Shown here piece after piece: positions 46,018-51,078 of a stretch of DNA of 64,000 nucleotides (position 1 is the first letter of the stretch; each line of letters opens with the position of its first letter). The notes beneath the pieces are model-generated. The model had not been told where the DNA came from. It worked only from the letters and a program-made list of their open reading frames with translations, and searched no databases. Source of the stretch: Streptococcus infantis ATCC 700779 (GTDB lineage: Bacteria > Bacillota > Bacilli > Lactobacillales > Streptococcaceae); contig NZ_GL732439.1 of assembly GCF_000187465.1 (NCBI RefSeq), positions 897,226 to 961,225 on the forward strand, written 5' to 3'. Made by a program: the position numbers and the translations under genes.

Positions 46018-46040
46018 ACTGAATAGAATATAATAAAAGC

Positions 46041-46083
46041 ACCCCAGAAGTTAGAGAAAAAGTCTAACTCCTGGGGTATTTTC
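46041..46083 (+). terminator. Terminator after the HAD gene
   Basis: ACCCCAG..GTTAGA/TCTAAC..CTGGGGT hairpin followed by ATTTT. On the minus strand the same stem is followed by GCTTTTATT and may also end the lipoprotein-cluster transcript. Confidence 0.8.
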
Positions 46084-46091
46084 ATTACAGA

Positions 46092-46565
46092 TTACTCTTC
46101 TGATTCCCTTTTTATTTTTGGAATTTTCTTATTATCAAGTTTAGGAATGCCATTGTTCTCAATCTTGGGAAGGTTCTTTAGTTCATCGGCAGTAGGCACC
46201 TTCTGGTATACCTTAGCAGGCCTATAGAGTAAAGCAAACGATAATAACAAGGCAATAATGCTCCCAACAGTTGCTATGTTTCGTTTACTCGCTTCTGTCG
46301 AAGGGACCCTGGCTCCGCTTGTACTAAGGTCCTTCCATTCAGGATGCTCTGCTTCAATCGCTTTTTTCTCTTCCCAAAGTGGAACGAGTAAGAAATGGTT
46401 GAACGGAACAACTGTAGCCATAGCTGTCGCGCCTAGCGGGATAAATCTATTGAGATTTATGATGAGCAAGATACTTAGGATAGAAAATAATACGAATAGA
46501 AGGATTACTAATACTAGGCGAATTTTATATTCTTTTTTTATTCGAAGGTATTCTTCTTGGGACAT
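46092..46565 (-). CDS. Small membrane protein, function unknown
   Basis: I do not recognise this 157-residue protein. It has three likely membrane segments: about 17-37, 40-62 (with LGATAMATVVPFNHFLLVPLW) and 97-113. A charged loop lies at 65-95. The cytoplasmic-looking tail (118-157) holds repeated short blocks LPKIE, IPKLD and IPKIK rich in Pro, Ile and Lys. It is the last gene of the lipoprotein cluster, 46 bp after the larger membrane protein and on the same strand, so it is probably part of that operon. Confidence 0.7.
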   Translation of the reverse strand: MSQEEYLRIKKEYKIRLVLVILLFVLFSILSILLIINLNRFIPLGATAMATVVPFNHFLLVPLWEEKKAIEAEHPEWKDLSTSGARVPSTEASKRNIATVGSIIALLLSFALLYRPAKVYQKVPTADELKNLPKIENNGIPKLDNKKIPKIKRESEE

Positions 46566-46611
46566 CTAACATATTACCTCTTTCTCCAAAATTCTATACA
46601 TCTGAAAAGCA

Positions 46612-47499
46612 TTAGTCCAGTGACTCCTGCTGTAAATCTTTGATAAACTTCACAACTTGACGGTTTCCAATCCTAACATGATAGCCACCGCTATTATTGA
46701 CTAGTTTATCCCCTTCATATCGATCAATCTTTACAGCATAAAGACCACTAGGTAAGGGTTGATTGTTAAAAAACTCTTTCAATTGCGATTCAAGGTCTTT
46801 AAGATAAGCATCATATAACTGATCCTTCTTGTCTTCTGGAGTGTAGTATCGAAATTGAAATTCTGGTATAAAGATATCTTTTTGGAAAAGATATTGAGCA
46901 TCCATAGGATACATCCCTTGTAATGCTTGTCCTTTTCTTTGATTTTCCTCTAAAATTTCATCATAAAGATACATATTGCCAGATTTACTATTAAATTGAA
47001 AATCAATCCCATCGTATTTCAAAGCAGTCATTTTGGGATCTGTTATTGAAGTATCCAATGTTTTTAAAAACTCACTGGTGCCTGGACTTATTTCAATCCC
47101 TAGATAGGCTAATTCTGGAAAAGCGTGATAAATTTTTTTGTTTTGTTCATAATCTACTTCTGCATCCGTCTTTTTATACTTTTTGTTTTCCGAAGGACGA
47201 GTATAGTATTCAAAGCGAGAATTAGCCTGATAGGTTTTACCATCTATATTTTCAGTGTAAGTACCATGGATTACAAATCCTCCTACACTTGTATAGTTTT
47301 TTTCGTATTTTTCTAACTCAAACTGACCTGTAAGACCGTAGTTCTCATAAGAACGATGTACAGCTTGCTCAAGTTCATTCCGACTTGCATGGGCAAATAG
47401 ACCCCACATATCCATCATAGCAATAATAGGACTCAGTACTATGAATATTGCAAATAGTATAACCATGGATAAACAACCAATTAATAAGCCTTTTTTCAT
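46612..47499 (-). CDS. Membrane-anchored extracellular protein, function unknown
   Basis: The 295-residue protein starts with an anchor helix (about 4-27) and has a soluble domain likely outside the cell; no lipobox cysteine is present at the end of the helix. I do not recognise the domain. The start was set at ATG 47499, because the upstream bases (TTAGGGATAGAAAT) are shared with the start region of lipoprotein 2 and one paralogue has a stop codon just before. It follows lipoprotein 4 and micro-ORF c at the same ~750-bp spacing as the array, as if it replaced a repeat unit. Confidence 0.7.
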   Translation of the reverse strand: MKKGLLIGCLSMVILFAIFIVLSPIIAMMDMWGLFAHASRNELEQAVHRSYENYGLTGQFELEKYEKNYTSVGGFVIHGTYTENIDGKTYQANSRFEYYTRPSENKKYKKTDAEVDYEQNKKIYHAFPELAYLGIEISPGTSEFLKTLDTSITDPKMTALKYDGIDFQFNSKSGNMYLYDEILEENQRKGQALQGMYPMDAQYLFQKDIFIPEFQFRYYTPEDKKDQLYDAYLKDLESQLKEFFNNQPLPSGLYAVKIDRYEGDKLVNNSGGYHVRIGNRQVVKFIKDLQQESLD

Positions 47500-47529
47500 A
47501 TTTCTATCCCTAACTAGCATTTGTATTGC

Positions 47530-47571
47530 TTACCTTTCGACCCGACGATTGCTCTTTTCGATTTCGTTCAT
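47530..47571 (-). CDS. Micro-ORF c, 13 codons
   Basis: Reads MNEIEKSNRRVER. It lies between lipoprotein 4 and the membrane protein and is colinear with two sister ORFs at 49027 and 49788, keeping length, frame and stop codon (TAA). The ribosome site is weak here (GGGATGA). It may be a translated peptide or a conserved nucleotide spacer. Confidence 0.4.
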   Translation of the reverse strand: MNEIEKSNRRVER

Positions 47572-47577
47572 AAACTA

Positions 47578-48249
47578 TCATCCCTTTTGTTTAAATATAG
47601 TTAAATCCAACTGAACTGTCTTATCTTTCGAATTCATCTGAATTGTAATACCATAAATTGTATAACTAGAATAGCTAACTATTATTCGACAGGTTGTATC
47701 ATCTGGCATATCGTACTTATTTTTAAGATATTTATAGAGGTCAGATTGATTTTCTGACTCGTAGATAATATCACTCAATTCAGTTTCAGCGCTCTTAAAG
47801 GTTTCTTTTATATCCAAAGAAGCAAAATAATCTCTTTGTACTACTAAATTAAGAATTTCTTCATCATATAAAGGAGTTACCTCCGACCCATAATTTAACT
47901 TCCCATTTGAGTATGTAACAGGAACCGATTCTTTTTTATCTCCGGTTTTTATTGTATAGTCACCCTTAATGGCTGATTCAGTAATATCTAAATCAATCTC
48001 ATAATCCTGTACTTGAGTTCCAGCTTTTATATAAACATCACAAATATAAGCCTTTAATCCCGTAAAGTCCTTCTTGTCTTGTTCTAAAAATTTAAATATA
48101 GGATCAAACGTTTTTTCAAATTCGTACTGTTCTTTTGTTCTGTTTTTGGGAATGGTTTCACCACCCAAACTACATCCACTCAGTGCAAAAAGTGTCAAAA
48201 ACATCAGCATTACACTGACAACCCAAAATAAGTATTTATGATTTTTCAT
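47578..48249 (-). CDS. Tandem lipoprotein 4
   Basis: The 223-residue protein has a signal peptide with lipobox ALSGC (Cys26) followed by GGETIPKNRTKEQYEFEKTF, shared by all four paralogues. The mature part is soluble and charged, with a central DIKGDYTI-like strand and LFDEEILNLVVSRDYFASLD-like region (here LYDEEILNLVVQRDYFASLD). Its first ~70 codons are almost identical to those of lipoprotein 3 while the C-terminal 40 residues differ. I do not recognise the family. A surface immunity or binding role is possible but not shown. Confidence 0.75.
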   Translation of the reverse strand: MKNHKYLFWVVSVMLMFLTLFALSGCSLGGETIPKNRTKEQYEFEKTFDPIFKFLEQDKKDFTGLKAYICDVYIKAGTQVQDYEIDLDITESAIKGDYTIKTGDKKESVPVTYSNGKLNYGSEVTPLYDEEILNLVVQRDYFASLDIKETFKSAETELSDIIYESENQSDLYKYLKNKYDMPDDTTCRIIVSYSSYTIYGITIQMNSKDKTVQLDLTIFKQKG

Positions 48250-48319
48250 GTAAAAATTTCTCCAATTTTGAAATTAGTGCTATTTTTAGCTTACAATCTT
48301 TTTGATCGGATTCAAAAAA

Positions 48320-48994
48320 TTACTTTCCTTTCGCTAAATAAATTGCAGCACTGATTTGAACCAATTTTTCTTCAGATTCTAAACTTAGTAGTATATCGTA
48401 TCTGTCATAATACGCATATCCAAGACTAACTGAAAGTTTTGTGTCAGATGGAAGATTATACTTTTCCACTATTTTTTTATATAACTCTGATTGATTTTCT
48501 GACTCGTAGATAATATCACTCAATTCAGTTTCAGCGCTCTTAAAAGTCTTTTTCACATCTAAGGAAGCGAAATAATCTCTTGAAACCACTAAATTAAGAA
48601 TTTCTTCATCAAATAAAGGATCTATCTCTGACTCGTAATTTAACTTACCATTAGAGTAAGTAATAGGAACTGTCTCTTTAGTGTCACCACGTGTTATTGT
48701 GTAATCACCTTTAATGTCAGCTTGATTAATATCTAAGTCCACTTCGTAGTTTTTGACTTCAGCTTGTTTTTTTATATAAACATCACTAGTGTATGACTTT
48801 AATCCCGTAAACTCCTTCTTATCTTGCTCCAAAAATTTAAACATAGGCTCAAAGGTTTTTTCGAATTCGTACTGCTCCTTTGTCCTGTTTTTGGGAATGG
48901 TTTCACCACCCAAACTACATCCGTTTAGTGCAAAAAGTGTCAAAAACATTAGCATTACACTAACAACCCAAAATAAGTATTTATGATTTTTCAT
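48320..48994 (-). CDS. Tandem lipoprotein 3
   Basis: This 224-residue paralogue has the lipobox ALNGC (Cys26) and the common GGETIPKNRTKEQYEFEKTF start. It shares KTFKSAETELSDIIYESENQS with lipoprotein 4, then departs: its last 45 residues (from YNLPSDTK) share little with the other three, suggesting a swapped or fast-changing C-terminus. An in-frame stop codon just upstream shows that translation starts at this ATG, which guides the start choice for its relatives. No function is recognised. Confidence 0.75.
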   Translation of the reverse strand: MKNHKYLFWVVSVMLMFLTLFALNGCSLGGETIPKNRTKEQYEFEKTFEPMFKFLEQDKKEFTGLKSYTSDVYIKKQAEVKNYEVDLDINQADIKGDYTITRGDTKETVPITYSNGKLNYESEIDPLFDEEILNLVVSRDYFASLDVKKTFKSAETELSDIIYESENQSELYKKIVEKYNLPSDTKLSVSLGYAYYDRYDILLSLESEEKLVQISAAIYLAKGK

Positions 48995-49026
48995 ATTTTG
49001 TATCCCTAACTAGAATTTATATTGCT

Positions 49027-49068
49027 TTACCTTTCAACCAGACGATTACTCTTTTCGATTCCGTTCAT
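49027..49068 (-). CDS. Micro-ORF b, 13 codons
   Basis: Reads MNGIEKSNRLVER between lipoproteins 2 and 3. GAGG lies 5 nt before its ATG and overlaps the stop of lipoprotein 2, so re-initiation is plausible. Differences from copy c include silent third-base changes (AGT/AGC, GTT/GTC). Confidence 0.45.
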   Translation of the reverse strand: MNGIEKSNRLVER

Positions 49069-49075
49069 AAAAACC

Positions 49076-49744
49076 TCATTCTTTTGCAAAAATAACGTTA
49101 CTTATTTGTACAATCTTCTGATTCGATTCTAGTTGTATAGTAGCTCTATATATAGTTGAGCTTGAATGATTTATTACTACTATACATGTCGTTTCTTCTG
49201 GTAAATCATATTTACTTTTCAGATGTTTATAGAGGTCAGAGTTTTGTTCTGGCTGGTATACAATCTCACGAAGTTCTGTCTCTGCGCTCTTAAAAGTTTC
49301 TTTTACACCTAATGAAGTAAAATAATCTCTTTTAACAACTAAATTGAAAATTTCCTCATCAAATAAAGGATTTATCTCAGACTCATAATTTAACTTGCCA
49401 TTAGAATATGTAACAGGAACAGTTTCTTTATTCTCCCCATGTGTTATTGTGTAATCACCTTTAATGTCAGCTTGATTAATATCTAAGTCCACTTCGTATT
49501 TTTTGACTCCATCTTCAGTTTTTATATAGACTCTACTAATGTATATCTTTAGTCCCGTAAAATCCTTCTTGTCTTGTTCTAAAAATTTAAACATGGGTTC
49601 AAACGTTTTTTCGAATTCGTACTGCTTCTTTGTCCTGTTTTTGGGAATGGTTTCTCCACCCAAACTACATCCATTTAGTGCAAAAAGTGTCAAAAACATT
49701 AGCATTACACTAATAAGCCAAAATAAGTGTTTATGATTTTTCAT
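49076..49744 (-). CDS. Tandem lipoprotein 2
   Basis: The 222-residue paralogue has signal sequence and lipobox ALNGC (Cys26), then the shared N-terminal block and LFDEEIFNLVVKRDYFTSLG. The C-terminus (YDLPEETTCIVVINHSSSTIYRATIQL) resembles lipoproteins 1 and 4. Seven further codons are open upstream of ATG 49744, but the sister gene lacks them, so the shorter start was chosen. It follows micro-ORF a. It is presumed to sit on the outer face of the membrane. Confidence 0.75.
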   Translation of the reverse strand: MKNHKHLFWLISVMLMFLTLFALNGCSLGGETIPKNRTKKQYEFEKTFEPMFKFLEQDKKDFTGLKIYISRVYIKTEDGVKKYEVDLDINQADIKGDYTITHGENKETVPVTYSNGKLNYESEINPLFDEEIFNLVVKRDYFTSLGVKETFKSAETELREIVYQPEQNSDLYKHLKSKYDLPEETTCIVVINHSSSTIYRATIQLESNQKIVQISNVIFAKE

Positions 49745-49787
49745 ATTTCTATCCCTAAGTACCATTTATATTGTATTATCAATAGCA

Positions 49788-49829
49788 TTACCTTCTAATC
49801 CATCGATTACTCTTTTCGATTCCATTCAT
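49788..49829 (-). CDS. Micro-ORF a, 13 codons
   Basis: Reads MNGIEKSNRWIRR and has the best ribosome site of the three (GGGAGGAG, 6 nt before the ATG), placed right after the stop of lipoprotein 1. The first nine residues equal those of copy b; the last four differ in sequence but not in length. Confidence 0.5.
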   Translation of the reverse strand: MNGIEKSNRWIRR

Positions 49830-49841
49830 CGAGTCTCCTCC

Positions 49842-50501
49842 CTAGTTTTCAAATATTCTTAAATCTATTTGAATTGACTTAGTCATTGATTTCATTTGTA
49901 TAGAAGTTCGATAAATACCTCCACTGGAGTGTTTAATTCTTACTCTACAGTTGGTATCTTCTGGTAGATCATACTTATTTTTTAGGTATTTATAAAGTTT
50001 AGAGTGATTTTCTGGTTGGTAGATGATTTCACGAAGCTCTGTTTCAATGCTATCAAAAGTCTCTTTCACATCCAAGGAAGCGAAATAATCTCTTGAAACC
50101 GCTAAGTTAAGAATCCCTTCATCAAATAATGGGTCTGTATCTGATTCATAATGCAACGTCCCACTAGAGTATGTGACAGGAACTGTTTCTTTGTTTTCCC
50201 CAGCTATTATTTTGTACTTACCTTTAATGTCAGCTTTATTAGTATCTAGGTCAACTTCATAATTCTTTACGTCGTCTCCAGTTTTTATATAAACACTACT
50301 TTGATATGCTTCTATCCCAGTAAATTCTTTCTTTTCTTGCTCCAAAAATTTAAACATGGGTTCAAAGGTTTTTTCAAATTTGTATTGTTCTTTTGTCCTG
50401 TTTTTTGGAATGGTTTCACCAACTAAACCACATCCATTCAGTGCAAAAAGTGTTAAGATTATTAGCATTACACTAATAAGCCAAAATAATCCTTTTTTCA
50501 T
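49842..50501 (-). CDS. Tandem lipoprotein 1
   Basis: The first gene of the array encodes 219 residues with lipobox ALNGC (Cys23) and the block VGETIPKNRTKEQYKFEKTFEPMFKFLEQ. It is the most diverged at the N-terminus (MKKGLFWLISVM rather than MKNHK...). The domain continues with VDLDTNKADIKGKYKI, LFDEGILNLAVSRDYFASLD and an extended C-terminal strand pair. AGGAG precedes the ATG and a promoter lies just upstream, so the whole cluster is likely read from here. Function is not recognised. Confidence 0.75.
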   Translation of the reverse strand: MKKGLFWLISVMLIILTLFALNGCGLVGETIPKNRTKEQYKFEKTFEPMFKFLEQEKKEFTGIEAYQSSVYIKTGDDVKNYEVDLDTNKADIKGKYKIIAGENKETVPVTYSSGTLHYESDTDPLFDEGILNLAVSRDYFASLDVKETFDSIETELREIIYQPENHSKLYKYLKNKYDLPEDTNCRVRIKHSSGGIYRTSIQMKSMTKSIQIDLRIFEN

Positions 50502-50527: not shown

Positions 50528-50556
50528 ATTATACCACACCATGGATATCTTATGAA
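50528..50556 (-). promoter_or_regulatory. Promoter of the lipoprotein cluster
   Basis: TTCATA (50551-50556), 17-bp spacer, TATAAT (50528-50533) with an extended TGG just before it, minus strand. I see no comparable promoter or terminator between the later genes of the cluster. Confidence 0.65.
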
Positions 50557-50615: not shown

Positions 50616-50687
50616 CGCTCCCTGCAGGAATCGAACCTGCAACTACTCCTTAGGAGGGAGTTGTTATATCCATTGAACTAAGGGAGC
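50616..50687 (-). tRNA. tRNA-Arg (anticodon CCT)
   Basis: The minus strand folds into a 72-nt tRNA: acceptor GCTCCCT/AGGGAGC, D-arm with AGTTCAATGGATA, anticodon loop CTCCTAA (anticodon CCT, reading AGG), T-arm with GCAGGTTCGATTCCTGC and discriminator G. The CCA end is not encoded. It follows rplS closely. Confidence 0.95.
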
Positions 50688-50730: not shown

Positions 50731-51078
50731 TTAACGACGGATTTCTTTGATACGAGCTGCCTTACCTTGAAGAGCACGCAAGTAGTACAATTTCGCACGA
50801 CGTACTTTACCGTAACGAACAACTTCGATTTTTTCAACACGTGGAGTGTGGATTGGGAAGATACGTTCAACACCTACACCGTTAGAGATTTTACGAACTG
50901 TGTAGTTTTCTGAGATGCCAGCACCTTTACGTGCAATAACAACACCTTCAAAGATCTGAACACGTTCACGGTTTCCTTCGACAACTTTCGCGTGTACACG
51001 AACAGTGTCACCAGGACGGAATGAAGGGATATCTGTACGAAGTTGACCTTCAGTCAAGCTTTGGATTAATGGATTCAT
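50731..51078 (-). CDS. rplS: 50S ribosomal protein L19
   Basis: The 115-residue protein is a standard L19, located at the subunit interface: [35 protein letters not shown], then [31 protein letters not shown]. It forms a single-gene unit whose leader carries a long inverted repeat, similar in place to the Firmicute L19 leader. Preferred codons dominate, as expected for a ribosomal protein. Confidence 0.97.

Follow-up and report, generated by a model that had tools for sequence, protein, structure and literature searches.

The genome of Streptococcus infantis ATCC 700779 contains, within a 64,000-nucleotide stretch of contig NZ_GL732439.1 (positions 897,226 to 961,225; hereafter the window, whose first letter is position 1), a tandem array of four paralogous lipoprotein genes. 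All are on the minus strand, at 49842..50501 (copy 1, 219 amino acids [aa]), 49076..49747 (copy 2, 223 aa), 48320..48994 (copy 3, 224 aa) and 47578..48249 (copy 4, 223 aa). We propose, with a probability of about 0.83, that these lipoproteins are an orphan immunity array against type VII-secreted, TslA-like SA1320 phospholipases of competing oral streptococci. The orphan array is supported computationally by the pairing of homologues with toxin genes, the lipase homology of those toxins, the DUF576 fold, copy-number variation and mosaic copies, and by the window genome itself, in which we found no full-length SA1320 gene. Each lipoprotein would sit on the external side of the membrane and there bind and block a variant of an SA1320-family phospholipase; several divergent copies would cover several toxin variants. 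Copies would be gained, lost and reshuffled by recombination anchored in their near-uniform first ~60 codons. We infer that the lipoproteins are displayed on the surface, that the SA1320 proteins are exported and enzymatically active, and that the former bind and inhibit the latter and protect the cell.

Pairing of lipoprotein homologues with SA1320 toxin genes

A profile built from the four window copies identified homologues in 39 of 284 Streptococcus genomes. In the same 284 genomes, where only four candidates per genome were scored, 23 genes in 21 genomes passed the cut-off of the SA1320 family model (NF047388). A lipoprotein homologue was located immediately upstream and on the same strand for 11 of these 23 genes, where almost none would be expected by chance. 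These 11 pairs occur in 10 of the 21 SA1320 genomes, the window genome not being among them, and lipoproteins and SA1320 genes co-occur by genome (Fisher p = 9 × 10−5). EssC matches were scored for no more than two candidates in each genome; among those listed, one adjoins seven of the 11 pairs (G125, G142, G146, G185, G224, G236 and G265, with a partial EssC in G125 and G185). The pair in G274 lies ~10.6 kb from a listed match, and three pairs (two in G017 and one in G191) are near none. S. oralis DD21 and two strains of S. parasanguinis show the order EssC-sized gene (1130-1469 aa), lipoprotein, toxin. The toxin of locus L008 was confirmed as SA1320 by the model.

By sequence, the streptococcal partners carry an N-terminal GxSxG lipase domain homologous to TslA, which PMC10730906 describes as a type VII-secreted phospholipase A of S. 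aureus. The same paper describes TilA, a DUF576-family immunity lipoprotein that is encoded directly upstream of TslA in varying tandem copies, binds it with a dissociation constant of 14.2 nM and protects. A GxSxG motif was found near residue 108-163 in 20 of 21 full-length SA1320 open reading frames (ORFs; two are the same protein), counted without a motif filter, with the ORF in L063 lacking it. The 17 toxins that we aligned (of 20 loci; broken toxin genes in L050/L080, L070 and L071 were left out) had been filtered by the motif itself and are therefore no evidence for it. A profile of these 17 toxins resembled the TslA-type proteins from tandem-lipoprotein loci of a staphylococcus-like genus (P = 1.7 × 10−19, 301 columns) and a streptococcal TslA-type set (P = 1.4 × 10−30), with two unrelated control sets at 0.31 and 0.68. 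In addition, the SA1320 model matched two of the three staphylococcal TslA-type proteins scanned.

There are also differences from the staphylococcal system. The aligned SA1320 proteins are 770-876 aa long, whereas six staphylococcal TslA-type proteins span 441-486 aa. The secretion partners of TslA, TlaA1 and TlaA2, are small helical proteins encoded downstream (PMC10730906), and TslA itself ends in a helical, LXG-like domain. The ORF lists of L008-L010, read without a profile and with part of L008 masked, show no abutting pair of ~100-aa genes after the SA1320 gene.

Further arrangements were seen around SA1320-family genes. In the staphylococcus-like genus, two ~300-aa tandem lipoproteins precede an SA1320-family gene (L195:5515-9811 and L196:5893-10329), and their start motif EKVPDRMPAQEY recalls the streptococcal ETIPKNRTKEQY without profile similarity. 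Considered as possible family members, these lipoproteins gave a negative profile comparison (P = 0.54) and were left uncounted. Upstream of the SA1320 genes in L071 (190-1581) and L073 (3800-4850), a lipoprotein is repeated together with short toxin-start fragments, as though cassettes that join an immunity gene to the 5' end of a toxin gene had been stacked.

The lipoproteins share a predicted fold with S. aureus tandem lipoproteins

The original prediction could not place the lipoprotein domain in a known family. At the level of sequence models this still holds, as searches of the four copies against NCBIfam and Pfam returned no model at cut-off; the predicted fold, however, is that of the S. 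aureus DUF576 tandem lipoproteins. We predicted it with AlphaFold2 from 17 mature lipoprotein sequences, with the mature part of copy 1 as the query (mean predicted local distance difference test [pLDDT] 78.5, predicted template modelling score [pTM] 0.76). The top five rows of a Foldseek search against the PDB were chains of 4EGD, 4EG9, 4BIG and 4BIH (SAOUHSC_02783, Csa1B and Csa1A), with E-values from 1.4 × 10−7 to 5 × 10−5. These entries belong with the tandem-lipoprotein family because a lipoprotein that passes TIGR01742 matches them by sequence, at E-values of 4 × 10−80 or better. In VIA-align, 4EGD and 4EG9 both scored Z 14.3 (183 and 185 of 196 residues, root-mean-square deviation 3.6, 14-15% identity), the Csa1 proteins Z 12.4 and 10.8, and the next family, mycobacterial LppX, Z 8.6. 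An hhalign profile comparison with DUF576 pointed moderately the same way, with P = 3.8 × 10−5 over 153 columns (probability 71%), with controls at 0.046 (TipC) and 0.0029 (the 295-aa membrane protein encoded after copy 4). A sequence search of solved structures returned only chance-level rows for the lipoproteins (best E-value 0.47) and none for the 295-aa protein.

Three other families were tried and rejected. The PoNi immunity model (PF08929, PoNi_C) reached 17.8 bits against a cut-off of 25 (E-value 0.006), a type VI secretion system immunity lipoprotein model stayed below its cut-off at 0.018, and TipC (NF033863) gave no match at E-values up to 10 and P = 0.046 in the profile comparison. 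PF04507 itself was matched in five of 250 Bacilli genomes, all of one genus, and in none of 59 genomes of the Streptococcaceae, the window genome included, in a search whose own controls gave no match. The lipoprotein-family set began as 141 raw profile matches, many of them the same gene in overlapping loci; 55 of the mature sequences were unique, and a limit of ~93% similarity left 40. The new profile hidden Markov model also caught one unrelated helical fragment (L030, E-value 3.6 × 10−4), which we ignored. The window lipoproteins have the modelled fold of TilA-type proteins, and their relatives also have the genomic position, but by sequence they fall outside DUF576; we therefore call them TilA-like and not DUF576 members. 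The description of the array as an undescribed surface system is only partly right: the streptococcal branch is recognised by none of the family models searched, but the kind of system is known from the S. aureus TilA/Csa/Lpl tandem lipoproteins.

The window genome and its variable site

The window genome encodes a full EssC (C1:1808888-1812709), and none of its SA1320 candidates passed the cut-off (four of nine scored). As EssC is present but a full-length SA1320 gene was not found, the array has the look of orphan immunity. When searched with a profile of three SA1320 toxins, the genome matched only a TslA-type gene at C1:1545275 (E-value 4.1 × 10−11; all three candidates scored).

Two further loci of this genome deserve mention. 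At L095:4531-7241 (G000:C1, about 1544530-1547240) is a TslA-like four-gene cassette in the order tilA-tslA-tlaA1-tlaA2, comprising a DUF576-like lipoprotein (family profile P = 8.7 × 10−9), a 435-aa lipase-like protein with GHSLG, and small proteins of 136 and 129 aa. Many Streptococcus genomes have matches to the SA1320 model that are about as long and below its threshold, and eight such loci were inspected. Downstream of the genome's own EssC (L097:16196-19080), a 545-aa protein, perhaps an LXG-type toxin (it has no model match), is followed by two similar small genes, of which the first is a TipC-family immunity gene by model (L097:17838-18458).

The window array is located at a site bounded on one side by rplS (50731-51078) and a minus-strand tRNA-Arg gene (50616..50687). 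A copy-number comparison, as the original prediction had suggested, showed that lipoprotein number at this site is not constant: the related genomes that we read (one genome per species) have between 0 and 4. We read the site from rplS/tRNA-Arg to a Cof-type hydrolase gene, whole or in part, in mechanical ORF lists of 17 genomes. Four lipoproteins were present in three genomes (G000, the window genome, and G066 and G072, read as L005 and L006), two in two genomes (G204, where one is truncated, and G092) and one in three (G005, G130 and G206). The remaining nine contained none (G065, G069, G070, G071, G126, G153, G165, G242 and G244), with a short remnant in G153. In relatives, the same site carries Imm6, IFS and DUF6572 genes, the last named after a domain that PMC12558993 reports from S. 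suis immunity proteins of the type VII system. By eye only, an ATP-binding cassette transporter-like set (L142) and a different lipoprotein (L137) were also seen there. This immunity-island setting, together with toxin-gene pairing, fold and copy-number variation, lends good support to the earlier suggestion of an immunity array against secreted toxins.

Lipoprotein relatives were also found at other chromosomal sites (e.g., L046, L059 and L111). Three orphan relatives (L046:8140-8808, L111:7527-8195 and L108:8192-8854) have the lipobox cysteine replaced by W or F and would stay anchored through an uncleaved signal helix.

Mosaic copies and alleles shared with toxin-paired lipoproteins

Amino acid identity among the window copies falls from a near-uniform start toward a divergent C-terminus, with six-pair means of 0.82-0.92 over alignment columns 1-60 and 0.42 over columns 181-220. 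Comparing strains, with the 172-aa truncated copy of L007 left out, we found copy bodies that are common to several of them while the first 62 codons swap. The body of window copy 1 is 94-99% identical in nucleotides to that of L005 copy 1, and its first 62 codons are closest to other genes. L005 copy 2 is 96% identical to window copy 3 in the first 62 codons and elsewhere at most 59% identical to all 16 other genes compared. Other type VII immunity genes are known to recombine between tandem paralogues (PMC9484751).

Some alleles closely match lipoproteins that are paired with toxins. Compared from residue 26 onward, window copy 3 and the toxin-paired lipoprotein of G236 share 92% identity; the value is 90% between copy 4 of S. 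infantis L005 and the lipoprotein paired with the toxin in S. parasanguinis 6.1. Window copies 1, 2 and 4 are 72-76% identical to the eight toxin-paired lipoproteins compared.

A possible specificity cassette

When five close pairs of toxin and lipoprotein were compared (10 comparisons), lipoprotein identity tracked the first 75 toxin residues (rho 0.86; Mantel, 5 of 120 permutations), with rho -0.29 for the lipase core (95/120) and 0.28 for the C-terminal part (23/120). In 50-residue windows along the toxin, rho was 0.78 for residues 1-50 and at most 0.34 elsewhere. The two S. parasanguinis strains illustrate this, as their lipoproteins are 74% and their toxin residues 1-75 are 75% identical, with 98-99% identity over the rest of the toxin. 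A tentative and rather doubtful explanation is that the lipoprotein body and the first ~75 SA1320 residues are exchanged together by recombination as a single specificity cassette, whose breakpoints lie in the uniform lipoprotein start and near toxin codon 75, and that orphan arrays serve as allele reservoirs. If so, immunity would be specified by the N-terminal segment of the toxin and not by its catalytic core. Over all eight pairs (28 comparisons), the correlation was no weaker for the C-terminal part (rho 0.91) than for residues 1-75 (0.82), with 0.69 for the lipase part; the C-terminal correlation is what shared ancestry would give. The correlation for residues 1-75 is also a post hoc observation on five pairs, and linkage or adjacency alone could produce it.

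Weighing of alternative explanations

Several results weigh against an orphan immunity array of TilA-like lipoproteins. By the coordinate test, 12 of the 23 SA1320 genes have no homologue directly upstream. At least six of these (in L066, L068, L069, L070, L071 and L073) are preceded by a different, smaller lipoprotein, that in L064 by a very weak relative, and the ORF lists of L063, L065, L067 and L074 show no lipobox gene abutting the SA1320 gene. Since different small lipoproteins precede at least six other SA1320 genes, the arrangement of a lipoprotein before an SA1320 gene is more general than the window family. Conversely, 29 of the 39 lipoprotein genomes had no SA1320 gene over the cut-off among the four candidates scored in each, so that most copies are assigned by analogy. 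None of the four copies matched PF04507 or TIGR01742 (DUF576/SA_tandem_lipo) at E-values up to 10, and the DUF576 profile comparison is only moderate (71%, against P = 0.0029 for the 295-aa control). The five AlphaFold models had mean pLDDT values of 78.5, 78.2, 65.5, 60.3 and 53.1, so that two are alike in quality. A structure prediction for SA1320 from three sequences was poor (pLDDT 36.7, pTM 0.25) and was not used. Finally, pairwise ratios of nonsynonymous to synonymous substitution rates (dN/dS) were 0.05-0.41, with no sign of positive selection.

Tandem, diverging copies would also fit antigenic variation, and the lipoproteins might thus be variable surface antigens or host-interaction proteins, as has been proposed for S. 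aureus Lpl/Csa; Lpl proteins are linked to keratinocyte invasion and immune stimulation in PMC10730906. Such a role would account neither for the toxin pairing nor for the further immunity genes that share the site, and dN/dS, albeit a weak test, shows no sign of positive selection; we regard it as quite unlikely. We think it likewise quite unlikely that they serve housekeeping or nutrition as general lipid- or substrate-binding surface proteins with an LprG/LppX/LolA-like fold and lie near toxin genes only by chance. LprG, LppX and LolA do turn up in the fold searches, below the DUF576 structures (Z of 8.6 or less versus 14.3), and a shared fold shows no function. Patchy presence in 39 of 284 genomes, 0 to 4 copies at the site and a homologue directly upstream of 11 of 23 SA1320 genes also argue against housekeeping.

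The position of the toxin-linked copies, directly upstream of the toxin gene and in the same orientation, could be expected of accessory or chaperone lipoproteins that aid export or folding of SA1320 instead of blocking it. We consider this very improbable, since the lack of SA1320 over the cut-off in 29 of 39 genomes leaves most copies without a toxin, as expected if they confer orphan immunity but not if they assist secretion, and since the known secretion partners of TslA are the small helical proteins encoded downstream.

Organisation of the array and its two membrane proteins

The array and the two genes that follow it form six open minus-strand ORFs (46092-50501), the four lipoprotein genes being intact, in agreement with the original prediction of four paralogous lipoproteins at regular spacing and two membrane proteins. 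Start-to-start distances are 754, 753, 745 and 750 bp, the last measured from copy 4 to the ATG at 47499 of the following membrane protein gene, which thus keeps the spacing as had been noted. Copies 2 (with an alternative start at 49765), 3 and 4 are 71, 64 and 64% identical to copy 1. All four have a lipobox (LNGC in copy 1), and a search of the window genome at E-values up to 10 found none beyond these four. The closest named relative of copy 1 is from a Streptococcus infantis contig (92%).

One promoter had been suggested for all six genes. A promoter-like site with an extended -10 lies upstream of copy 1 (50528..50556, minus; a consensus match only, TATAAT, 10/12), and a terminator-like hairpin of 16 pairs follows the last gene (46040..46078, minus; a pattern match only). 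However, neither class of site is commoner in the window than in shuffles (21 promoters versus 20.6, two terminators versus 2.3), so that transcription of all six genes from one promoter is plausible only.

The first membrane-anchored protein (46612..47520, minus; 302 aa, or 295 aa from the ATG at 47499) has homologues of ~73% identity in other genomes, where they are encoded past EssC within the type VII region (e.g., L127 and L128). The second, of 157 aa (46092..46565, minus), matches a ~224-aa gene product over its first ~147 residues; in G130, G025 and G191 this gene begins ~30 bp beyond the EssC match, and G204 (82% identity) and G236 have the same arrangement on the minus strand. Because of these homologues in type VII loci, both proteins look linked to type VII secretion, perhaps as immunity or accessory proteins. 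Neither depends on the lipoproteins, and both genes persist where the lipoproteins are absent (L141, L142 and L155). The idea that these last two proteins anchor or regulate the lipoproteins was thus not borne out.

Comparison with known systems and significance

The window family resembles the S. aureus TilA/Lpl/Csa proteins (DUF576, PF04507; TIGR01742) in its tandem genes of variable number, its predicted fold and recombination through a conserved block. Like TilA with TslA, its relatives lie directly upstream of a GxSxG lipase-type gene tied to type VII secretion; the window array itself is not beside a toxin. It differs in being only 14-15% identical to the solved members (VIA-align), in having no DUF576/TIGR01742 match, and in the position of the conserved block, which is at the 5' end in the window family and mid-gene in the S. 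aureus genes. TipC, the immunity protein for TelC in S. intermedius and others (NF033863), is likewise a membrane-anchored, outward-facing, multi-copy streptococcal type VII immunity protein with recombination between paralogues (PMC9484751), but the window lipoproteins do not match its model (profile P = 0.046), and the window genome has its true TipC gene elsewhere. Acquired immunity islands of Imm6, IFS and DUF6572 genes share the chromosomal site in relatives and also consist of immunity genes with no toxin beside them. These belong to other families with no lipobox in the ORF lists, whereas the window site holds one family amplified in tandem.

Among the literature matches listed, judged mostly by titles and abstract starts and with subscription journals little covered, no paper addressed DUF576-like or TilA-like proteins in Streptococcus, and none of the 12 places seen, of 19 in PMC5020093, puts DUF576 in that genus. 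TilA-like defence has been described in staphylococci; the array would add streptococci of the human mouth and airways, in a family that no searched model recognises, and it gives a patchy and variable set of surface lipoproteins a predicted function. Copy 3, matched to the G236 toxin, is an allele with a testable partner. As alleles can be matched to toxin partners, the role and specificity of tandem lipoproteins may be addressed with defined pairs.

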